From assembly GCF_019884785.1 (NCBI RefSeq), contig NZ_CP082326.1:1729355-1793354 (forward strand): DNA of 64,000 nt, in the 5' to 3' direction. A program made the translations under genes and the position numbers. Positions 27,457 through 38,925 of the stretch are shown here, piece after piece (within the stretch, counting starts at the first letter, position 1; the number at the start of each line of letters is the position of its first letter). Under the pieces are notes generated by a model that was not told the origin of the DNA, made no database searches, and saw only the letters and a list, made by a program, of their open reading frames with translations. This DNA comes from Crassaminicella profunda (GTDB taxonomy: Bacteria; Bacillota; Clostridia; Peptostreptococcales; Thermotaleaceae).

Positions 27457-27491
27457 TATAATACATTTAAGACAAGCACTAATGATTAGTG
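27457..27491 (+). promoter_or_regulatory. ald promoter with adjacent palindromic operator
   Basis: TATAAT lies at 27457-27462. A perfect 15-base palindrome, CACTAAT-G-ATTAGTG, lies at 27477-27491, where the start of transcription and early leader would be. No good -35 is visible. Such a position would let a bound repressor block initiation. Confidence 0.55.
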
Positions 27492-27529
27492 TAAATATTA
27501 ACAAAAAATTTTATGATGAGGTGATTGAC

Positions 27530-28648
27530 ATGATAGTAGGAATTCCAAAGGAAATTAAAAACAATGAGAACAGAGTGGCTATAACACCTGCCGGCGTAGA
27601 AGCTTTTGTTAAAGCAGGGCATGAAGTTATCATTGAAAACAATGCTGGTGTTGGAAGTGGCTTTAGTAATGAAGTTTATGAAGATGCAGGTGCGAAAATA
27701 ATTCCTACCCCTAAGGAAGTATTTGACCAAGCTGATATGATTATCAAAGTTAAGGAACCTCTAAAAGAAGAATACGATTACTTTAAAGAAGGACAAATAT
27801 TATATACATATTTACATTTAGCTCCAGAACCAGAATTAACTAAAGCCCTTATAGAAAAGAAAGTAGTTGGTATTGCCTATGAAACAGTTCAACTTGAGGA
27901 TCGTTCTCTTCCACTACTTATGCCTATGAGTATGATAGCAGGAAGAATGGCAACTCAAATTGGTGCTCAATTCTTAGAAAAGCATGAAGGCGGAAAAGGC
28001 GTATTATTAGGTGGAGTACCAAGTGTTGCTCCAGCTGAAGTTGTAGTAGTAGGTGGCGGTATTGTTGGAACAAATGCAGCTAAAATGGCTGTTGGTCTTG
28101 GCGCAAATGTAACGATTTTAGATGTAAGTATGAGCAGACTTATTTATTTAGATGATATTTTTGGTGGAAGAGTAAACACTGTTATGTCAAATAGCTATAA
28201 TATTGCAGAAGCTGTTAGAAAAGCAGATTTAGTAATAGGTTCTGTATTAATCCCAGGAGCAAAAGCACCTAAATTAGTAACAGAAGATATGGTTAAGACA
28301 ATGGCACCAGGTTCTGTACTTGTTGATGTTGCTATTGACCAAGGTGGTTGTATAGAAACAATCGATAAAATCTCTACTCATGACAATCCTACATATGAAA
28401 AATTTGGTGTTCTTCATTATGCAGTTGCAAATATGCCAGGTGCAGTAGCAAGAACATCTACTCTAGCATTAACAAATACTACTTTAAAATATGGATTAGA
28501 TATAGCTAATAAAGGTTATTTACAAGCAATTAAGGATGATAAAGCGTTAGCTAAAGGTGTTAACGTAATTGATGGAAAGATTACTTTTGAAGCAGTAGCA
28601 AAAGCACATGATCTTGAGTATACTCCACTTGAAGAAATTATTGGATAA
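27530..28648 (+). CDS. ald: Alanine dehydrogenase
   Basis: The enzyme oxidatively deaminates L-alanine to pyruvate with NAD+. The 372-residue length is normal. Features are [17 protein letters not shown] at the N-terminus, K-V-K-E-P, H-L-A-P and the Rossmann motif [11 protein letters not shown]. The C-terminal [10 protein letters not shown] segment is also present. ATG at 27530 follows GAGGTGAT. It fits the amino-acid fermentation theme by feeding pyruvate and NADH. It is monocistronic with its own terminator. Confidence 0.95.
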
Positions 28649-28663
28649 TTATAAGAATATGAA

Positions 28664-28699
28664 AAATCCTTCTTGAAATTTTGAGAAGGATTTTTTTTA
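28664..28699 (+). terminator. Rho-independent terminator of ald
   Basis: AAATCCTTCT at 28664-28673 pairs with AGAAGGATTT at 28684-28693 and is followed by six more T. Confidence 0.93.
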
Positions 28700-28775
28700 G
28701 TAAATGAATAATATTGTTGATTTCTATTAAGATGAGGACATAAATAAGTTTAATATTCTAAGATAATATTTAGTC

Positions 28776-28815
28776 ATTTTGCATATGAATTTTTCGAATG
28801 ACATATGTGCAAAAT
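28776..28815 (+). promoter_or_regulatory. Inverted repeat upstream of the selenoprotein gene
   Basis: ATTTTGCA-TATG at 28776-28787 mirrors CATATGTGCAAAAT at 28802-28815, apart from a 2-base insertion. It lies about 45 bases upstream of the coding start, where a promoter-proximal operator would be. Confidence 0.45.
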
Positions 28816-28860
28816 AATTAAATACTAGAATAAATAAAAAATATAGAAAGGAACTACAAA

Positions 28861-29085
28861 ATGGAAAAAATCAAAGTGTTTACTACAAAAACATGACCTC
28901 ATTGTGCAACTGTGAAAGAGTATCTTTCACAAAAAGGAGCATCCTTTGAAGAAGTGGATGTAACAAGTAATATGGATGCAAGAAAAGAATTGATGAAAGA
29001 AAGAATTATGGCAGTACCTGTTGTGAAGATCGATGATGAATATATTGTTGGTTTTGATAAAGAAAAATTAGATAAATTAATGTAA
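28861..29085 (+). CDS. Glutaredoxin-like selenoprotein (in-frame UGA = Sec12)
   Basis: The frame runs 74 residues from ATG 28861 to TAA 29083-29085, with one in-frame TGA at 28894-28896. Reading it as selenocysteine gives the redox motif T-U-P-H-C at the end of the first strand. The rest is a complete glutaredoxin/NrdH-type fold: Y-L-S-Q-K-G-A-S-F-E-E-V-D-V, the cis-Pro loop M-A-V-P-V-V and a final I-V-G-F-D-K-E-K-L. RBS is AAAGGAAC. An 8-bp hairpin at 28911-28931 fits a bacterial SECIS. Selenocysteine glutaredoxins are established in Alkaliphilus-type clostridia. Ordinary gene finding would split or drop it. Selenocysteine insertion genes are not in this window. Confidence 0.9.
28911..28931 (+). 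promoter_or_regulatory. SECIS-like hairpin for selenocysteine insertion
   Basis: TGTGAAAG (28911-28918) pairs perfectly with CTTTCACA (28924-28931) around a 5-base AGTAT loop. The loop starts 22 bases after the UGA and has G at its second position. Both match the known bacterial SECIS pattern (apical loop about 16-37 nt from UGA, G in the first two loop positions). Confidence 0.82.
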
Positions 29086-29088
29086 AGA

Positions 29089-29114
29089 ATCATGCCTTCT
29101 ATAGGCATGGTTTT
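29089..29114 (+). terminator. Rho-independent terminator of the selenoprotein gene
   Basis: CATGCC at 29091-29096 pairs with GGCATG at 29104-29109. Flanking A-T pairs extend the stem and a T run follows. It lies directly after the TAA stop. Confidence 0.82.
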
Positions 29115-29148
29115 TAATTATTTCGTGATGATCTTCTTTGGGTTTGGG
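29104..29148 (-). pseudogene. DUF4177 gene fragment
   Basis: On the minus strand this stretch encodes P-K-P-K-E-D-H-H-E-I-I-K-N-H-A, the recognisable centre of the small DUF4177 protein family. It has no proper start, and the C-terminal W-R-L-V-Q region is lost. A better-preserved copy of the same motif is at 36224-36352. The fragment is antisense to, and merged with, the terminator of the selenoprotein gene. Confidence 0.5.
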
Positions 29149-29187
29149 GATGATGATTATAGAATAGATAGTCAGTGTGATTTGTGA

Positions 29188-29382
29188 CTAATAGATATCT
29201 GTATTTGCCATAAGTAGAACAGCAGCAATTACAATAAGCACATTTACTGTTATTAATATTTGGGTAAGCATTTTATTTTCAAGGATTCTTTGTATGATGG
29301 AATCAATGTATTTTACCATATATATTGCAATACAATTAAGCAAAACACCAAAAATCAACTGTTGAAAAGAGATAGGTAACAT
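29188..29382 (-). CDS. Small two-helix membrane protein
   Basis: A 64-residue product with two predicted transmembrane segments: L-I-F-G-V-L-L-N-C-I-A-I-Y-M-V (about 9-23) and I-L-I-T-V-N-V-L-I-V-I-A-A-V-L-L (about 43-58), joined by a short charged loop. ATG at 29382 has an excellent GGAGG ribosome site 9 bases upstream. It lies 5 bases downstream of a 15-codon ORF whose last codons contain that site, so translation is probably coupled. No family is recognised. Confidence 0.55.
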   Translation of the reverse strand: MLPISFQQLIFGVLLNCIAIYMVKYIDSIIQRILENKMLTQILITVNVLIVIAAVLLMANTDIY

Positions 29383-29387
29383 ATAAA

Positions 29388-29435
29388 TTAACCTCCTTTC
29401 CAAAATGGATTTTTTATAATTGTTTTATAGACCAT
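29388..29435 (-). CDS. 15-codon micro-ORF with a strong ribosome site
   Basis: ATG at 29435 is preceded by AAAGGAGGTGAT, a near-perfect Shine-Dalgarno, and the 15-residue peptide ends in K-N-P-F-W-K-G-G. Its final Gly codons form the GGAGG site of the next gene. It may be a leader peptide or a real micropeptide. It overlaps the end of another open frame (29425-29523, 32 residues, one hydrophobic helix, no ribosome site). Confidence 0.45.
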   Translation of the reverse strand: MVYKTIIKNPFWKGG

Positions 29436-29676
29436 TTGCTATCACCTCCTTTGAATTTATTAGTAGACGGATTTCAAGTGTTTCGTAGATAAATATTGCA
29501 ACAATGGTGAACATCATCCCCATAAAATTAATAAACAATTAGTATATGTAAACTTAATCAAAATTATATAGTTAATTTAACCATTTTTATAAAAAATTAT
29601 GTGGATTTAAAACTCATAAGGGAGTTTTTTAGGGAGCGGCCTAGTTTTGGCCGCATCAAGGTTCTTACTATCCTAA

Positions 29677-30792
29677 TTATTCAGACCTTTTTATTTTAAA
29701 CCAACCTGGGAAACTAGCAATTTTATTGGCCATTCTGATTGGAATATTTTGTTTTTCAAGGTTTTCCATATCTATGTAATTTTGAATTTCTTCGCTAGCT
29801 TTTATCTTTCTAATCCAATTAGGGTCTGTGACTATAGCTTGCCCTATAGAAACTAGATTGTATCCTACATTGTTCAAAGCATCTTCTACGTCTGCTTTGG
29901 AATATATGCTTCCTACTCCAATTATTGGCTTTCTTCCGTTAACCTTTTCCAGTAATAACTTTCCTATGATTCTTTTATCACTTGGATTTCTTATTGATGT
30001 AGCTTTGTAATGCATTAGAGATACATGCATATAATCAATTTCTTGATCTGCTAATTTGTCTACTAGATATAAGGTATCTTCTAATGTAATTCCTTTCTCT
30101 TCCATTTCTTCTGGGGAGAATCTATAGCCAATTATAAATTTTGTATTACTGTATTGAGTTCTTGCTTTATTTGCAGCCTTTATGATTTCAAGTGGGAAAC
30201 GCAGTCTTTTCTCACTTGTTCCACCCCATTCATCTGTTCGGCGATTAGTTTCTGCTGAAAAGAATTGTTGAATCAAGAATTTGTTTGAACCATGGATTTC
30301 AATACCATCAAAGCCTGCTTCAATTGCTCTTCTAGTTGTTTCGTAAAAGTCATGAATAAACTCTTGGATTTCTTCATGAGTCATTTCTTTTGGTGTTTCC
30401 ATTTCTGCTTCCATTCCAAAAACATTATACATAGATTTAACTGCTGAAGCACTAATGAGTTGCCCGTTGTTAGGCAAAGCCATTCTACCACCATGGAATA
30501 TTTGAAGAATAGCCTTTGCACCTTGCGATTTTATTGAATTTGATAGTTTTTTTAGTGAAGGTATAAATTCATCACTACCCGCATAAAACTCGTTTTCAAA
30601 TGCCTGCCCATTTGGTTGAAAGAAAGTACATCCTGTAATAACCATTCCTGCTTCTTTTGATCTAGCTATATAATAATCGACTTCTTCATCTGAAATCGTT
30701 AGATTATCATTTGAAGACCATGTTGTTAAAGGTGCCAAAACAATTTTATTTCTTAATTTCACGTTTTCTTTAAGTATAAATTCATTAAACAT
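29677..30792 (-). CDS. NADH:flavin oxidoreductase / Old Yellow Enzyme family
   Basis: The 371-residue TIM-barrel FMN protein reduces activated C=C bonds with NAD(P)H in related enzymes. Visible are R-N-K-I-V-L-A-P-L-T at the start, Q-I-F-H-G-G-R (flavin contact), G-F-D-G-I-E-I-H-G-S-N (usually H-G-A-H or H-G-A-N), and R-T-D-E-W-G-G-T. The C-terminal I-G-V-G-S-I-Y and S-I-G-Q-A-I-V-T-D-P are also present. It lacks the extra Fe-S and FAD domains of dienoyl-CoA reductases. ATG at 30792 follows GGGGG; upstream is a perfect Fur-type box, so iron control is likely. Confidence 0.88.
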   Translation of the reverse strand: MFNEFILKENVKLRNKIVLAPLTTWSSNDNLTISDEEVDYYIARSKEAGMVITGCTFFQPNGQAFENEFYAGSDEFIPSLKKLSNSIKSQGAKAILQIFHGGRMALPNNGQLISASAVKSMYNVFGMEAEMETPKEMTHEEIQEFIHDFYETTRRAIEAGFDGIEIHGSNKFLIQQFFSAETNRRTDEWGGTSEKRLRFPLEIIKAANKARTQYSNTKFIIGYRFSPEEMEEKGITLEDTLYLVDKLADQEIDYMHVSLMHYKATSIRNPSDKRIIGKLLLEKVNGRKPIIGVGSIYSKADVEDALNNVGYNLVSIGQAIVTDPNWIRKIKASEEIQNYIDMENLEKQNIPIRMANKIASFPGWFKIKRSE

Positions 30793-30822
30793 TTGAATCC
30801 CCCTCTGCAACTAATCGATAGC

Positions 30823-30841
30823 AATGATAATTATTATCATT
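30823..30841 (-). promoter_or_regulatory. Fur-type box upstream of the Old Yellow Enzyme gene
   Basis: A perfect 19-base dyad, AATGATAAT-T-ATTATCATT, contains the 7-1-7 core TGATAAT-N-ATTATCA (30825-30839) that is the established Fur motif of Firmicutes. It lies 31 bases before the ATG, in the expected promoter/leader position. Confidence 0.82.
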
Positions 30842-31072
30842 CACTTATTGAAAAATATATCATTATAAGTTAAATATGTCAATATCTTAATTTATACACA
30901 AAGGGGCGGTTATGTTGTATGATATTGAAAATTATAAGAATGAACATTGTTTGAGTGGTCTTAAATTTTTAGCATCTACAATTTCATCACAATTTAGTTT
31001 TCTAAAATTTTCAATTTTTAAAGTGGGGTTAGAATTATAATAGTTTTATAAAAAAATTGAGGATTAATATGA

Positions 31073-31127
31073 AAAAGCAGGAAAGGGTTACAATAGTCCC
31101 TTCCTGCTCATTCAGGAATAATACATA
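31073..31127 (-). repeat. Three-segment hairpin element, copy A
   Basis: Read on the minus strand, ATGTATTATTCCT is followed by GCAGGAAGGG, a loop, CCCTTTCCTGC and T residues. Segment 2 can pair with segment 1 (TTCCTG-N6-CAGGAA) or with segment 3 (the terminator form). Copy B at 36434-36488 shares about 25 conserved bases and the same folding options. No intact gene precedes copy A, so it may be a relic of a lost gene. The surrounding 30842-31401 stretch holds no gene that I can support. Confidence 0.5.
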
Positions 31128-31401
31128 TGTAAAAGAAGAATCTATTACTAGATAATATAACCAAAAAAGAAAAATATACGCATTAAATGTAAGGTCAGAA
31201 GGATAAAAATCAAAAGAAGTGATTAATAACACTTTTTTTGATAGAGACTAACTATGACAAACAAACGAATCAACATTATACATACATGTTCCAAAATAAT
31301 ACCACTGAGTGTCAAGCCATATCCAGCCACCTATGTATATTATCTTTGTTCATTAACATACTATTATTGAATATTAAAATAATGAAAGGATGAACAAAAA
31401 T

Positions 31402-31641
31402 ATGATTACAGCAGAAGTAGCGGTATATCCAATGAAAACTTCTAATGCTACAAATGCAATTAACAATTCTATTAACACATTGAAAGCAAATAATGTTAGT
31501 TACACTGTAAATTCTATGAATACTCAATTAACAGGGACAAAGGCACAGATATTTAATAGTTTAGAATCAATGTTTACAGAAGCAGAGAATACTGGAGGAG
31601 AAGTAAGTATGGTAGTTACAATAACTAATGCAAGTAAATAG
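31402..31641 (+). CDS. Thiamine-binding (YkoF/MTH1187-type) domain protein
   Basis: The 79-residue single-domain protein resembles the YkoF/DUF77 fold, which binds thiamine or hydroxymethylpyrimidine in characterised members. Seen are I-T-A-E-V-A-V-Y-P-M-K-T at the start and E-A-E-N-T-G-G-E-V-S-M-V-V-T-I-T at the end, the two outer strands of the ferredoxin-like fold. ATG at 31402 has AAAGG 12 bases upstream; ATG at 31390 is too close to that site. No TPP riboswitch or thiamine transporter accompanies it, so ligand and role are open. Confidence 0.72.
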   Translation: MITAEVAVYPMKTSNATNAINNSINTLKANNVSYTVNSMNTQLTGTKAQIFNSLESMFTEAENTGGEVSMVVTITNASK

Positions 31642-31643
31642 TT

Positions 31644-31676
31644 AAAAGGCAGGTACTCAGAAATGGGTGCCTTTTT
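31644..31676 (+). terminator. Rho-independent terminator
   Basis: AAAAGGCA at 31644-31651 pairs with TGCCTTTT at 31668-31675, with a partly paired interior. It follows the thiamine-binding-type gene. Confidence 0.8.
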
Positions 31677-31896
31677 CGTTGTGAAGGAAAGTTAATTATT
31701 TTTTGATATAATAATAGTGCAGCTATTGGTATGAAAGAAAGCTTGTTGACCTTTTGAGAAAGTACAACTATGATTTTCATATTGATGCTAGTTAGATAGA
31801 AATCAAATATATTCGCTGAAACCGTACCATAAGTGACGGCGATTCTAAAATTATGTTTAAGCGTGAAATACGTAACCAGATGGAGGTGGATATATT

Positions 31897-32805
31897 ATGG
31901 AGTTTATATTTAATGAATCAAGGTTGATTTATATTTCTAAAATTAATAAGGTACAAGATTATATAGAAAAACATTTAGATGAAGAATTAAATATAAGGCA
32001 GCTATCAGAAATTGCTGCCTTTTCTAGTTTTCATTTTCAACGGATTTATCGACAGATGACAGGGGAAAGTCTCTATAGTTATATCAAAAGATTACGACTT
32101 GAAAAAGCTACATTTCTATTACTTGCTAATAAGAAAAAATCAATCCAAGATATTGCTTTATCAATTGGTTTTTCCAATCAGGCATCTTTTGCAAAAGCTT
32201 TCAAAGAGAAATTTGCTATGAATGCAAGTCAATTCAGATATCTTAATGAGACTGGAAATATGACAATTAAAGATATTAGCATGAATGGAAAAGTATATAA
32301 TACAGATATTCGTTATACTAGACCTATAGAAATATCTGTCAAATCAATAGAGACAATAAAAGTGGTTTATATTAGGCATGTGGGCTCTTATAAAGGTAAT
32401 AACAATCTTTTTGAAGGATTATTTTCAAAATTATATTCTTATACCAGTTCAAGGAATTATATAAGAAATGATTCAAAATGGTTTGCGCTGTACCATGATT
32501 TTGGGGATCTGACAATGGAAGAGCAGCTAAGATTAAGTGTATGCATGTCAACTAATGAAGATGTAAAAACTGACGGCGAATTTGGCAGTATGTTTCTAGA
32601 AGGTGGTACATGTGTGGTTGGAAGATTTTTGTTAAAGCCAAATGAATATCAACTAGCTTGGAATTATATGCTGTCAAAATGGTTGCCAGAAAGCGGTTAT
32701 ATGCCAGATAATCGTATATTTTTTGAACATTACCCATCTCAAGAATGCTATCAATGTAAAGAGGAGAAAGTTGTAGAAATATGTATTCCGATAACTCCTC
32801 TTTAG
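31897..32805 (+). CDS. AraC-family regulator with GyrI-like effector domain
   Basis: The 302-residue protein has an N-terminal pair of AraC HTH motifs (residues about 10-108; I-R-Q-L-S-E-I-A-A-F-S-S-F-H-F-Q-R-I-Y-R and I-Q-D-I-A-L-S-I-G-F-S-N-Q-A-S-F-A-K-A-F). A C-terminal GyrI-like/effector-binding domain follows (about 140-300, ending E-I-C-I-P-I). This Rob-like layout often senses small toxic molecules. RBS is GGAGGTGG. It ends 11 bases before the TrmO-UvrA gene, whose ribosome site lies between them, so it probably controlled that gene. Confidence 0.9.
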   Translation: MEFIFNESRLIYISKINKVQDYIEKHLDEELNIRQLSEIAAFSSFHFQRIYRQMTGESLYSYIKRLRLEKATFLLLANKKKSIQDIALSIGFSNQASFAKAFKEKFAMNASQFRYLNETGNMTIKDISMNGKVYNTDIRYTRPIEISVKSIETIKVVYIRHVGSYKGNNNLFEGLFSKLYSYTSSRNYIRNDSKWFALYHDFGDLTMEEQLRLSVCMSTNEDVKTDGEFGSMFLEGGTCVVGRFLLKPNEYQLAWNYMLSKWLPESGYMPDNRIFFEHYPSQECYQCKEEKVVEICIPITPL

Positions 32806-32816
32806 AAGGAGGAATT

Positions 32817-35649
32817 ATGAAAAAAATAAAATTTCAATCAATTGGAGACTATGAAATTATAAACAGATTGGATGAAGGGACAGAAGGTATTACAAAGATT
32901 ACTTTAAAAAAGGACTTTCAAAAAGCTATGATAAAATTAGGTGATTTTAGTCATTGTATTATTTTCACCAAAAATAAAAATAACCTTTTCTGTTATGGAG
33001 CAAAAATATATAGGTTGCATGAAAAGAGTGGTGAAATTTTGATAAATGGAGTAAATATGAAAGGTGAAATTGTAGATATAAAACCATATTTCCCATGTGA
33101 AGAAAGGCTAGAAAATGACTATACAAATCAAAAATCTACAGCAATTTATTTCAATGAAAATCCTATTGGTGAGTATCTATTTTTCAATAACAGTGGTGTA
33201 ATACAGATTCATGAATCGGAATATCTTCCAAAAGATAAAATAGAATCAGCATTAGAAAAGATAGAAAAAGGAGATTATCTAAGGGTTCTTTGGTGGTTTG
33301 ACAGATTTGACAAAAAAGAATTACGTAAGAATTGTATGTGTAATCCGCCTTATGAAAATGCACCAAAGTGTGGGATTTTTGCTACAAGGTCACCTGTAAG
33401 ACCAAATCCTATGGCATCTACCGTTGTAAGAGTAGAAGCCGTGGATAAGTATAATCACTATATAAGGGTTTGTGGTTTTGATGGATTTGAAAATTCGCAG
33501 ATATTACAAATCATTCCATATAGTGATGTTACTGTTTTTAAAGATGTTAGAGTTCCGGAGTGGGTAGAGCATTGGACGGATTACAAAGTCTTTCAAGAAT
33601 CTAAAGGGGATATTCCAGAAAACAATGTATGTGGTCAATGCGGAAGCATTTATTTTGACTTGACACCAGGAGTATTTAGTTACAATGACCCGGATCATAT
33701 GTGTCCTACATGCAAGGGCTTAGGAGAGAAATTACAGATTGATGTTGAGCGTATAGTAAGTAATCCTAATAAATCTATTTTGGATGGAGCATCTGTTTGG
33801 TGGGGAAATTTGAGAAAGCATAGGGAAAAGCCAAATGCAAACTGGATGAGAGGAGAAGTACTTGCCCTTGCTGGATATGAAGGAAAATCTGGAAGTACCT
33901 TTTAAGGAGCTTTCTGAGAATTTTAAGAGGCAGCTCTTCTATGGTACTAATGGGCGAGAAGTCAGTCTTAGCTATGTAAATTCTAATGGTAGGAAAGGTA
34001 TCATAAAAAGACCAGTTGAAGGTGTAGTCAATACAATGTATCGCCTATTAAGAAATAATAATGCTCAAAAATCAATGGCGAATCTTGAACAATATATTGT
34101 GAAAAAGAAATGCAGTCATTGTAATGGGGAGCGTTTAAAGGATGAAGGTCGTTTGGTGAAAATTGGTCCAACAAGATATCCAGAAGCTACTAACATGAAT
34201 ATATCAAAGTTGAAAAATTGGTGTCATCAAATATATAATACTTTAACTACTGAAAAGAAAGATAAATCCAAAATAATATTTATGAAGATTCTATATCAAT
34301 TAAAGAAAATGGAACAGGTAGGATTAAACTATTTAAGTTTAAATAGAAGTGTTCCTTCCCTTTCAGGTGGAGAATCTCAGAGGCTAAAAATTGCAACTTA
34401 ATTTGGATCAGACTTGACAAATATTCTCTATGTAATGGATGAACCATCTAAAGGACTTCATCCAAGGGACTATCAATTTCTTATAGAAGTTATTCGCGAT
34501 TTAAAGAAACTAAACAATACAGTTATCATGGTGGAACATAAAAAAGCGTTTATTGATAGGGCAGATTATTTAGTAGAGGTAGGTCCAAGAGCCGGTAAAT
34601 ACGGTGGACAATTATTAAGAGCTGAAGAAGTACAGGATAATAAAGGTAGTAATAGAGATACTTTTGATTTTAGACCTACCAATAAAGTGATTAGTGGAAA
34701 TAGGATTTTGGCACTAAAGGGGGTAACTACCAATAATCTAAAAAACATAGATATTAAGATACCTCTATCAAAACTAACTTGTGTGATTGGGGTAAGTGGA
34801 TCGGGTAAGAGTAGCTTAGTTTCAAAAACCATATATCCGGCTGTTTTAAAAAAGCTTGGGAAAAAAAGTGATGTCACAGGAGAGTATAAGGATATTTGTG
34901 GAGCAAATGACTTAAAAGAAGTTTATTATGTTAGTCAAAACCCAATTGGTAAGACACCTAGGTCGATTCCTGGAACTTATTCAGGTGTATATGATTTAAT
35001 AAGGGATTACTATGCTAAATTGGAGCAAGCAAAGAAGAAGAGATTAACTAAGGAGCATTTCAGCTTTAATAGCAAAAAAGGACAGTGCTCAGAATGTAAA
35101 GGTGCTGGTCTGATAGCTGTTCCTATGCATTTTATGCCAGATATATATACGACATGTACAAAATGTAATGGAAGAAGATATGATGATAAGATATTAGAAA
35201 TAAAATACAAAGGGTATAGTATTTCAGATTTATTAGAGATGGAAATTAATGAGGTTAAGGAAGTGTTCAGGGATGAAAAGAAAATATTTGATATGCTAGA
35301 CATATTTGATCGATTAGGAATATCTTATATTAAACTAGGTCAAAGTGCAACAACGCTTTCTGGGGGTGAAGCACAGCGAATAAAATTAGCAAAACAATTA
35401 TGCTTAGGTAAAACAAAGGATGTACTATATATTCTCGACGAACCTACAACCGGTCTTGATGATGAAAATGTAAAAAAACTAATCTATATCTTAAAAGAAC
35501 TAACAAATAATGGCGCAACTGTTATCGTAATTGAACATAATTCTTTACTTATACAACAAGCAGATTGGATTATTGAGATGGGCCCGGATGGTGGAAATTT
35601 AGGTGGTTATGTTGTAAATGAAGGTTGGTTGAATAATGGAACTATATAG
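32817..35649 (+). pseudogene. Broken gene for a tandem TrmO-like/UvrA fusion protein
   Basis: About 944 codons in three pieces. Residues 1-95 are a degenerate TrmO/TsaA-like unit (ending D-I-K-P-Y-F-P). Residues about 115-270 are a full one with F-A-T-R-S-P-V-R-P-N-P-M. The rest is UvrA from its first zinc finger (C-G-Q-C ... C-P-T-C-K-G-L-G) on. It keeps signature I L-S-G-G-E-S-Q-R, the second Walker A G-V-S-G-S-G-K-S-S, zinc finger 2, and signature II L-S-G-G-E-A-Q-R. The first UvrA Walker A is absent. A frameshift near 33866-33875 and an in-frame TAA at 34399-34401 (expected Gln in L-A-T-Q-x-G-S) break the frame. The rest reads well, so decay is recent. ATG 32817 has AGAAGGAGG. Confidence 0.85.
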
Positions 35650-35694
35650 CTCAGCGAAACTAATAAGGATATAGGTCATTAATGAGTACATTTC

Positions 35695-35799
35695 CTCTCT
35701 TTCGGCGGTTACATTTTTCATCGTGACAATTGGTACAATCCAGATGACTTTCATTTAAATATAGAAGCCGTTATTTGATTCTGTCAACATCATTTGTAA
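35695..35799 (+). pseudogene. Orphan C-terminal gene scrap
   Basis: One frame gives G-G-Y-I-F-H-R-D-N-W-Y-N-P-D-D-F-H-L-N before a TGA at 35776-35778, and then F-C-Q-H-H-L and TAA. This has protein-like composition but no start or N-terminus. I cannot name the family. It sits between the broken TrmO-UvrA gene and a terminator at 35828. Confidence 0.3.
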
Positions 35800-35827
35800 A
35801 CTTCCAGAGTAACAAAAAGAGCTGCAG

Positions 35828-35865
35828 TAGAATTTTAGCGAAGAGTAATTCTATTTATTTTTTTA
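35828..35865 (+). terminator. Probable Rho-independent terminator
   Basis: TAGAATT at 35828-35834 pairs with AATTCTA at 35847-35853 and is followed by TTTATTTTTTTT. It would end the AraC/TrmO-UvrA transcript. Confidence 0.6.
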
Positions 35866-35881
35866 AAAACACCTATTGTTC

Positions 35882-36145
35882 TTAGGCTCTACTATGCTTT
35901 AAATAACATTTCAAAATTAAATAAAAAGTATATAAGGTGACAGGGATTTGTAAGCTAGTCCAAAGAATCATTTGGTTTGTATCTCGTGGAAAGCTAATAC
36001 CTTGTCTAACTAGAATTTTATATTGTTCAACACTAGGGTTGATGAATGGCAGTATAACACCTGAGTAAAATAGTAACCAAAATAAAAAAAGATCAACCAA
36101 TAAAACAATAATGATAACTTTATGTTTTTTTATTATATTAAGCAT
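35882..36145 (-). CDS. Small two-helix membrane protein
   Basis: An 87-residue product with a basic N-terminus and two hydrophobic segments: V-I-I-I-V-L-L-V-D-L-F-L-F-W-L-L-F-Y (about 10-27) and L-Q-I-P-V-T-L-Y-T-F-Y-L-I-L (about 65-78). The loop between them would face outside. ATG at 36145 has AAGGAG 6 bases upstream, better than the longer frame from 36181. I recognise no family. Confidence 0.6.
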   Translation of the reverse strand: MLNIIKKHKVIIIVLLVDLFLFWLLFYSGVILPFINPSVEQYKILVRQGISFPRDTNQMILWTSLQIPVTLYTFYLILKCYLKHSRA

Positions 36146-36223
36146 ACGATACTCCTTATATATGGAATTTATGTAAATCAATATAAATTATATTATAATA
36201 TCAAAGGAAAATAAAGAGCCAAC

Positions 36224-36352
36224 TTAGGTATGAATTTTAATGTTAATTAAGAGTTTAGGGATAGCATGTTTTTCAATTACTTCGTGATGATCTTGCTTGG
36301 GTTTACGCCCAAAGGAACTGAGATCAATTTTAACAAATTTATATTCGTACAT
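36224..36352 (-). pseudogene. Truncated DUF4177 protein gene
   Basis: ATG at 36352 has a CAGGAGG ribosome site 7 bases upstream. The first 30 codons read as a normal DUF4177 N-terminus (M-Y-E-Y-K-F-V-K-I-D-L-S-S-F then R-K-P-K-Q-D-H-H-E-V-I-E-K-H-A). At residue 31 the frame changes to unrelated sequence and stops at residue 42, so the conserved W-R-L-V-Q-I-F half is gone. It is a 3'-truncated gene that may still be translated. The function of DUF4177 is unknown. Confidence 0.65.
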
Positions 36353-36433
36353 ATAAAACCTCCTGTTTTTTCGCTGGCAAGTATATTATATCAAAACTAA
36401 AAATAGAAAACACTAAATTAAAGATTAATCTAA

Positions 36434-36488
36434 GAAAGCAGGAAAGGACATTAAAGATCCCTTCCTGCTTAAGTAGGAATAATACATA
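36434..36488 (-). repeat. Three-segment hairpin element, copy B
   Basis: It lies just after the stop codon of the DMT transporter gene on the minus strand. GCAGGAAGGGA (36468-36458) pairs with TCCTTTCCTGC (36448-36438), followed by TTTCTT. A preceding ATTATTCCT can pair with the first arm instead. The order and about 25 bases match copy A at 31073-31127. Here it is probably the transporter terminator. Confidence 0.55.
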
Positions 36489-36493
36489 ATCAT

Positions 36494-36925
36494 CTATTTC
36501 TTCATGATAAAGTAGGTACCACAAAGCAAAAGGACGATTCCAATTAACTTAAACCAGTCTAATTCCTGTTGCTTGTTGACAAATACATCGATTAATAACC
36601 CACTTATGATTTGGGAAGCAACGATGATAGTAAGCGTGTTTGCTACACCTAGTTTAGGAATTGTTCTTGTCACAAAGTAAATAATGAAAGTACCAAAAAT
36701 ACCACCAATGAGTAACTGAGGTCTTACATGAATGACTTTTGTGTATTGGTGTAAGCTACCTTTTAACAGATTTCCGATTAGGATAATAATAACACCTGTA
36801 ACTAAACTATGTAGAGTGGCAATTTTAGGAGAAACAATTCTTCCTAATTTAGCATTAATACTTGCTTCTAGAGTGGTAAAAATACCTGCTAAGACAGCAA
36901 ATATAATTGGGATTATTTCTTTCAT
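36494..36925 (-). CDS. Half-size DMT-family transporter (YdcZ/DUF606-like)
   Basis: The 143-residue protein has five hydrophobic helices, the size of one YdcZ half-transporter. These are thought to pair with a second small partner or dimerise. Seen are I-I-P-I-I-F-A-V-L-A-G-I-F-T-T-L-E-A at the start, N-A-K-L-G, and V-A-N-T-L-T-I-I-V-A-S-Q-I-I-S-G in the fourth helix. No partner gene is adjacent, which is unusual because DUF606 genes are often paired. RBS AAAGGATG precedes ATG at 36925. The substrate is unknown. Confidence 0.8.
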   Translation of the reverse strand: MKEIIPIIFAVLAGIFTTLEASINAKLGRIVSPKIATLHSLVTGVIIILIGNLLKGSLHQYTKVIHVRPQLLIGGIFGTFIIYFVTRTIPKLGVANTLTIIVASQIISGLLIDVFVNKQQELDWFKLIGIVLLLCGTYFIMKK

Positions 36926-37488
36926 TTTATCGCATCCTTTATAAAATAAATGTCATTAAGAATATATTCCTAATAAAATAGTACTATGATAATGCTTTAA
37001 TCTTTAGATTTTGCTTATGGCTCCTTCTGGAACATGAGGGATTTTTTATTTATCTAAAGCTTTTTATGAGGAAAAAAAATATATATGGATTTAATGGATG
37101 GTAAAGGAATCACTATGAAAGCAATTTTATAAAGGTAGTTTACTAAATGTATAAAGTATTATACTTGCAATGATCTATCCCATAGTAACACCTCAAAATG
37201 GCTATAATATTGTGGGTACAAGGGATGATCTAATAAATTACATTGATGAAGGGAAAACTATACTAATAAAATTCCTGAAAAAAATAATTTTGTAAATCCT
37301 AGTGATCAAGATGCTTTATTTTAGAATTGTTACCAAAGCTATATGGGCTACTGATTAAAAAAGTTCATAAACATATAAAACCTTGAGCAGAGTGTTGAAT
37401 ATACTCACACCAAACTGATATAATATGATATGATATTAATCGAGTTAGATTTAAAAAAGCATTAATAGTAAGAAGGAGCGATAGTTTA
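36926..37488. other. 563-base stretch with eroded coding scraps
   Basis: Around 37170-37330 short segments have protein-like composition (V-T-P-Q-N-G-Y-N-I-V-G-T-R-D-D-L-I-N-Y). They are interrupted by stops and lack start sites, so I read them as an old pseudogene of unknown family. The last ~60 bases hold the miaB promoter region and its AAGGAGCGAT ribosome site. Confidence 0.35.
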
Positions 37489-38925
37489 ATGAGCGAAAGA
37501 AAAAAAGTAGAAGTTTCAGCAGATGAAATAGCATTACAAGATAAATATATAGAAAAAATAGCAGCGCAAAATATAGAACATTACCAAATGACAGGAAACA
37601 AAAAGAGAGTATATTTGGTGACCTATGGTTGTCAAATGAATGAACATGATTCTGAATTTTTATTAGGAATGCTTGATTATATGGGATATATTGAAACAAA
37701 TAACTTAAATGAAGCTGATTTAGTGATTTATAATACTTGTTGTATTCGTGAAAATGCTGAGCTAAAAGTTTATGGGAACTTAGGACAGCTAAAAAATATG
37801 AAGAAAAAAAGAAAAGATTTAATGATTGCTGTTTGCGGTTGTATGATGCAACAACCTCATGTTGTTAAAGCAATAAAAACTAAATATAAACATGTAGACC
37901 TAGTCTTTGGTACGCATAATCTACATAAGTTCCCTCAACTATTAGTAGAAGGAATGCAATCAGAAAAAACCGTTGTAGATGTATGGGATGAGGAAGGAAG
38001 AATAGTAGAAGGACTTCCAGCTATAAGAAAATATAAATTAAAAGCATTTGTAAATATTGTATATGGGTGTAATAACTTTTGTACTTACTGTATTGTCCCT
38101 TATACGAGAGGACGAGAAAGAAGCAGAAAACCTGAAGACATTATAGAGGAAATTAAGGAATTGGTGGCTACTGGTACAAAGGAAGTTACACTTTTAGGAC
38201 AAAATGTAAACTCTTATGGAAAAACTTTAGAGGAAGATATTGATTTTGCAGGTCTTTTATATAGAATCAATGAAATTGAAGGTTTAGAAAGAATAAGATT
38301 TATGACATCTCATCCGAAAGATTTATCCTTTAGATTGATAGAAGCCATGAGAGATTGTGAAAAAGTGTGTGAACATATGCATTTACCTGTACAAGCAGGA
38401 AGTACAAATATACTAACAAAAATGAATCGACACTATACAAAGGAAAAATATCTTGAATTAGTAAATGCCTTAAAAAGAGAAGTTCCTCATGTAGGAATCA
38501 CAACAGACATTATTGTAGGATTCCCAGGAGAAACAGAAGTAGACTTTGAAGAAACATTAAACTTAATCAAAACTGTTGAATATGATTCTGCTTATACTTT
38601 TATTTACTCTGTTAGAGAAGGAACGCCAGCAGCTAAATTTGAAGATCAAGTACCAGAAGCTATAAAGCATGAACGTTTTGAAAGATTATTAGCTGTTTTA
38701 AATCCTATTGTTGCCGAAAAAAATAGTAAATTTAAGGATAAAGTAGTAGAAGTTTTAGTAGAAGGATACAGTAAAACGAATAAGACAAAGCTTATGGGAC
38801 GTACAAGAACAAGTAAGCTTGTGAATTTCACAGGACCTAAAGAGTGTATAGGAAAACTTGTAAAGGTAAAGATTACAGATCCTAAAACATTTAGTTTAAA
38901 TGGTGAATTTATTGGGGAGAATTAA
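37489..38925 (+). CDS. miaB: tRNA-2-methylthio-N6-isopentenyladenosine synthase MiaB
   Basis: The radical-SAM methylthiotransferase acts on i6A37 of tRNA made by MiaA. The 478-residue protein has an N-terminal ~60-residue extension and then the UPF0004 domain (Y-G-C-Q-M-N, N-T-C-C-I-R, C-G-C-M-M). The radical-SAM motif is C-N-N-F-C-T-Y-C at about residues 194-201, and a C-terminal TRAM domain follows. It is the first gene of a tRNA-modification/mismatch-repair block; miaA lies four genes on in the same direction. Confidence 0.95.

Follow-up and report, generated by a model that had tools for sequence, protein, structure and literature searches.

The window analysed here, a 64,000-nucleotide stretch of the Crassaminicella profunda genome (a single contig of 4.59 Mb, completeness 98.46), holds a short gene whose reading frame is broken once, by an in-frame TGA at codon 12. 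With this TGA written as U, the predicted protein of 74 residues reads MEKIKVFTTKTUPHCATVKEYLSQKGASFEEVDVTSNMDARKELMKERIMAVPVVKIDDEYIVGFDKEKLDKLM, so that the 74-codon frame giving T-U-P-H-C, first noticed in a reading made from the sequence alone, is exact in both sequence and translation. The gene is preceded by a ribosome-binding-site-like motif and followed by a terminator-like hairpin (Table 1), which bears out the terminator of that reading: two terminator-like sites were found in 28600–29200 on both strands, against a mean of 0.0 in shuffled sequences. In the same frame, the mechanical list of open reading frames (ORFs) offers only a 57-amino acid (aa) ORF from GTG 28912, from which the active site is missing. 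Mechanical ORF calling thus shortens a well-supported glutaredoxin gene.

Table 1 Features of the glutaredoxin locus and UGA-containing genes elsewhere in the genome. Positions are those of the window unless prefixed G000:C1 (contig of the same genome).
Feature	Position	Strand	Basis
Alanine dehydrogenase, upstream neighbour	27482..28648	+	ORF list; counterpart in L021
Ribosome-binding-site-like AAAGGA, 8 nt 5′ of the ATG	28847..28852	+	By eye from sequence
Selenocysteine glutaredoxin gene (predicted)	28861..29085	+	74 codons plus stop (ATG 28861, TAA 29083–29085); PF00462 match and frame-conserved homologues
In-frame TGA, predicted Sec12, active site UPHC	28894..28896	+	Aligned codon TGA 33, TGT 23, TGC 18 in 74 homologues
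Codon for Cys15, probable resolving cysteine	28903..28905	+	Translation; role from Clostridium oremlandii Grx1 Cys16
SECIS-like hairpin	28911..28931	+	Arms 28911–28918 and 28924–28931, loop AGUAU 28919–28923; synonymous-recoding control and pair counts
Intrinsic-terminator-like hairpin, then T-rich tail	29085..29115	+	Terminator scan
selD with in-frame TGA within TSG-U-AAKIG	G000:C1:1951713-1952636		Genome search and translation
grdA with one in-frame TGA	G000:C1:2295435-2295875		Genome search
grdA with one in-frame TGA	G000:C1:2239957-2240397		Genome search

The order alanine dehydrogenase then glutaredoxin recurs in two congeners (loci L021 and L031), and the L021 counterpart of the alanine dehydrogenase matches TIGR00518 with 566 bits. 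Directly 3′ of the glutaredoxin in these two congeners lies miaB; in the window miaB starts at 37489, separated from the glutaredoxin by about 8.4 kb (29086–37488) with ORFs that we take to encode an NADH:flavin oxidoreductase-like protein and an AraC-like regulator.

With the TGA entered as cysteine, the protein matches the Pfam glutaredoxin family PF00462 (E = 8.5e-18; 64.8 bits, cut-off 22.9) and carries the C/U-P-x-C motif near its N terminus, as UPHC at residues 12–15. The closest solved structure by sequence is 7c10, ‘Glutaredoxin’ (E = 5.6e-23, 37 of 72 residues identical), whose CPHC at 13–16 aligns with this UPHC. Taken together, family and structure-sequence matches predict a complete glutaredoxin fold. 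Among NCBIfam models the YruB-type TIGR02196 fits best: the window protein matches its profile positions 1–73 of 74 and yet scores 87.2 bits, 1.35 bits under the curated cut-off of 88.55; model-based annotation could therefore narrowly miss the gene. Membership of NrdH (TIGR02194) was rejected at 52.9 bits against a cut-off of 85.75, and of the fold first described as ‘glutaredoxin/NrdH-like’ the glutaredoxin half stands, while NrdH gives way to the better-scoring YruB-type model. Likeness to the Uxx-star family (NF041212; UXX-star 1–3), small glutaredoxin-like proteins that include selenoproteins, amounts to 49.1 bits, short of the cut-off at 66.

Judging from CPHC or CPHS at residues 13–16, the chains of 7c10 and 7c12 are presumably C. 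oremlandii cGrx1. Passages of two papers on this protein (PMC4479559, PMC7642778) describe Grx1 as a native selenoprotein, report a U13C/C16S mutant and a structure solved with cysteine in place of selenocysteine (Sec), giving a CPHC motif, and propose Grx1 as reductant of the methionine sulfoxide reductase MsrA. The window protein has C/U-P-H-C at the place equivalent to the catalytic Sec and resolving Cys described there for the native protein, and by sequence it is related to Sec-glutaredoxin 1 and probably orthologous to it. The two differ in their context rather than as proteins: cGrx1 was proposed in those passages to reduce Sec-MsrA, whereas the window genome lacks MsrA by PF01625. A table in a 2006 survey (PMC1794560) lists two Sec glutaredoxins for Alkaliphilus metalliredigenes, also a clostridium, to which the window protein can be likened by their description, and a 2026 review (PMC13188914) states that a limited set of bacteria is known to have Sec glutaredoxins and places the UxxC glutaredoxin above the heading ‘Predicted with high confidence’.

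We searched for the family in 59 genomes, that of C. profunda included, and found it in 48. From about 110 matches (a hand count) 70 homologues were extracted, the remainder being the weaker matches and some middling ones (for example, G038, G048:C10, G055, G027 and G043:C6). Four further loci came from the eight of a separate locus search, in which L021 (same sequence as L030), L026 and L027 (distant, with gaps) and L028 (partial coverage) were omitted. Across these 74 homologues the alignment column of the TGA in the window is occupied without exception by TGA or a cysteine codon (33 TGA, 23 TGT, 18 TGC). The TGA forms, 21 short and 12 long, come from 26 genomes. In all 33 the frame downstream of the TGA is open to its end, and upstream it is open back to the matched start; in four (L034, L047, L062 and L073) the start-type codons that come first in the list ahead of the TGA are all GTG or TTG, with no ATG. 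Their active site is UPHC in 31, UPLC in L078 and UPYC in L097. The sequence-only reading had proposed as a test that the frame be conserved both before and after the UGA; this held, the UGA being exchanged only for Cys codons. We regard this comparative evidence as decisive for a predicted Sec at this position.

The same alignment bears on whether the TGA instead ends translation, as a genuine stop codon or through a recent nonsense mutation, leaving either a pseudogene or the 57-aa ORF that begins after it and that the mechanical list does contain. Such a product would start too late to include either the first strand or the active site, and a pseudogene is hard to square with the same aligned TGA in 33 of 74 homologues from 26 genomes, flanked on both sides by conserved residues, or with a hairpin stronger than the protein sequence demands (see below). 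The same TGA with open frames occurs in congeners (L030 and L031) and in more distant relatives, and we rejected this explanation as highly improbable.

The closest named relative of the gene, at 91% identity, belongs to a Marinisporobacter MAG, a genus that NCBI taxonomy places in the Clostridia, Thermotaleaceae. Within the genus of the window organism, the Sec form occurs in G001 and G003, and G002 has just a Cys form. The window genome itself also encodes a Cys paralogue with the motif CVYC (L076:2995-3243, minus strand); its neighbours are two ORFs that we take to resemble dehydratase-activase-like proteins and, presumably, a small ferredoxin-like membrane protein. When all 74 rows are placed on a tree, which has few columns to draw on and many forks open, 12 Sec/Cys changes are needed (24.5 in shuffles), and of these 12 changes 5 are forced by branches with good support. 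A supported branch (98/96) unites the window gene with five further Sec forms from its own family, and the CVYC paralogue sits apart from it, among 26 Cys forms in a branch of their own (99/85).

The 12 long TGA forms (L059, L062, L073, L078, L083, L091, L092, L094, L095, L096, L097 and L098) represent a longer Sec glutaredoxin (about 112 aa) whose C terminus bears a CxxC...CxxC tail, by sequence resembling a zinc ribbon. The same tail is borne by a Cys form, L077. Scans of two long forms gave no NCBIfam model over its cut-off, Pfam matches to the tail lay below cut-off in the three that were scanned, and a limited literature search found no published account of a long Sec glutaredoxin with a CxxC tail.

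Bacterial SECIS elements consist of a hairpin shortly 3′ of the UGA with a G in the apical loop. The window gene has a hairpin of this kind, a candidate SelB site, and its coordinates agree with the earlier description of a perfect 8-bp stem with its loop 22 nt after the UGA and G as second loop base; an A-U at the loop edge could form a ninth pair, leaving GUA as the loop. On folding, the isolated 52 nt stood out from shuffles only moderately (z = -1.69; 13 of 200 shuffles equally good), a score that is not convincing by itself. When the encoded protein stretch was kept constant and recoded synonymously 5,000 times, with codons sampled at the usage of five ORFs of the window, 3 recodings reached the observed hairpin energy. 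An Rfam scan of 28600–29300 that admitted E values up to 1 gave two matches, both at 28600–28700, and none at the hairpin.

We then compared the hairpin across homologues, counting identical stretches (L068, L096) once, which left 32 distinct TGA forms and 40 distinct Cys forms; as these are related by descent, the counts that follow are not independent. In a fixed-register control, 23 of 32 TGA forms reached p ≤ 0.01 and 24 of 32 reached p ≤ 0.05, against 2 of 40 Cys forms at either threshold. Because the fixed register missed TGA forms with the stem in another register, we added a free-register test, in which the best hairpin whose loop lay 15–31 nt downstream of the codon and had a G close to its beginning was compared with 300 synonymous recodings per homologue. 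Here, the hairpin went beyond the recodings at p ≤ 0.05 in 28 of the 32 TGA forms but in 3 of the 40 Cys forms, and at p ≤ 0.01 in 15 of 32 against 0 of 40. Among the TGA forms failing at 0.05, L044 is without such a hairpin, and L054, L056 and L097 have one with p values of 0.07–0.12; L050 and L078 pass, but at another distance, 31 nt.

Pair by pair in the fixed register, the four middle pairs are formed in 25 or 26 of 32 TGA forms against 5 to 14 of 40 Cys forms, and the three loop-adjacent pairs are formed in nearly all TGA and Cys forms, as expected from the conserved protein sequence there. One pair of the stem is CG in 14 TGA forms, UA in 9, GC in 1, GU in 1 and unpaired in 7. Cells changed on both sides number 17 against a shuffled mean of 4.8, with none of 500 shuffles as high. 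The slide control is not clean: at slide -2, covariation is 0.208 against 0.233 in the true register, and the pairs changed on both sides are 5 against 4, with 61.3% against 73.8% of cells paired. The hairpin is thus kept in TGA forms with some compensatory changes and is mostly absent from Cys homologues. In one Cys form, L040, a hairpin persists that is short but sits in the same register (p = 0.02), as a remnant of a SECIS-like element would; hairpin remnants after Cys codons are described for other families in a passage of the 2006 survey (PMC1794560).

The genome encodes the machinery that Sec insertion would call for, and the proposed search for selA, selB, selC and selD accordingly found all four: selA (638.9 bits), selB (403.9 bits), selD (401.4 bits) and, as selC, a tRNA-Sec with anticodon TCA (74.5 bits). 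selA adjoins selB, with selD about 2 kb and the tRNA-Sec about 9 kb from selA. Other genes of the genome carry in-frame TGA codons too (Table 1). In the translated stretch around selD, the stops before the gene are read as non-coding region. Two grdA genes, one of which was translated, each have one in-frame TGA, and further members of known selenoprotein families therefore carry UGA in this genome. Over the wider sample, selA exceeds its cut-off in all 26 genomes with TGA forms and is absent from 9 of the 59; in one genome without selA (G028), the single family match is a close homologue (L045) in the Cys form.

These observations also weigh on a reading of the TGA as tryptophan, or on its unspecific suppression. 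With TGA, TGT or TGC at the position in 74 of 74 homologues, decoding as tryptophan was rejected: all 41 homologues with a codon other than TGA carry Cys. The Sec machinery is present in the genome, and the hairpin is mostly confined to the TGA forms. Nothing was found in favour of this alternative, and we give it hardly any weight.

The earlier observation is confirmed, and its interpretation as a selenocysteine glutaredoxin is supported. What the sequences show is the gene itself, the exchange of UGA with Cys codons, conservation of the hairpin, a genome equipped with the Sec machinery, and membership of the glutaredoxin family, and we are nearly certain that the gene encodes a 74-residue selenoprotein glutaredoxin in which UGA specifies Sec12. 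From this we infer Sec insertion in this organism, the chemistry, and the existence of a client and a reductant, as follows. SelB carrying GTP and Sec-tRNA(Sec) would bind the hairpin just 3′ of the UGA, so that selenocysteine would enter at position 12 and termination would be averted. The product would be a dithiol-type glutaredoxin with the active site Sec12-Pro-His-Cys15. The selenolate of Sec12 would attack the oxidized thiol of a client protein, after which Cys15, probably the resolving cysteine by analogy with Cys16 of C. oremlandii Grx1 as described in passages of PMC4479559 and PMC7642778, would resolve the mixed bond, and a reductant would regenerate the enzyme. Two thioredoxin reductases score over cut-off in the genome; both are encoded close to the grdA pair, at distances of no more than about 2 kb.

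As to the client, reduction of MsrA could be the main task of the Sec glutaredoxin, as proposed for C. oremlandii Grx1: the nearest solved homologue is 7c10, parts of the Grx1 work (PMC4479559, PMC7642778) concern MsrA, and three genomes (G015, G039 and G051) each have a short Sec glutaredoxin together with a TGA-containing MsrA. Against this, PF01625 detected no MsrA in the window genome, in a search whose control finds MsrA in 12 of 14 known genomes, and likewise none in G001, G002, G003 or G004 (the last only 68% complete); by the same model, 7 of 21 genomes with a short Sec glutaredoxin are without MsrA. An MsrA gene with one in-frame TGA, by sequence a probable Sec-MsrA, occurs in 9 of 59 genomes (G015, G019, G030, G039, G041, G042, G049, G051 and G058). 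In six of these nine the short glutaredoxin is a Cys form, which also argues against MsrA as the client (one of the six, G058, additionally has a long Sec form), and in the three named above it is a Sec form. These mixed states indicate that Sec in the two proteins is not tied together. We consider MsrA reduction as the main task very improbable. Because MsrA was not found in the genome, the client here probably differs from the MsrA of C. oremlandii. That the Sec glutaredoxin of this clade serves a non-MsrA client, a different oxidized protein, possibly without glutathione, is a tentative proposal to which we give slightly less than an even chance; the glutathione synthesis family TIGR01435 was not found in the genome, in a weak search that was positive in only 3 of 14 controls, and the genome does have the two thioredoxin reductases mentioned above.

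The gene is a new addition to a selenoprotein family that is already known and of which a related protein has been studied in a clostridium. Without MsrA, the one client studied so far fails to explain why the protein would be retained as a selenoprotein here. More broadly, one small protein switches between a Sec and a Cys form across the alignment, with the SECIS-like hairpin present in the Sec state and mostly gone in the Cys state, and this makes the family a handy test bed for Sec/Cys exchange.
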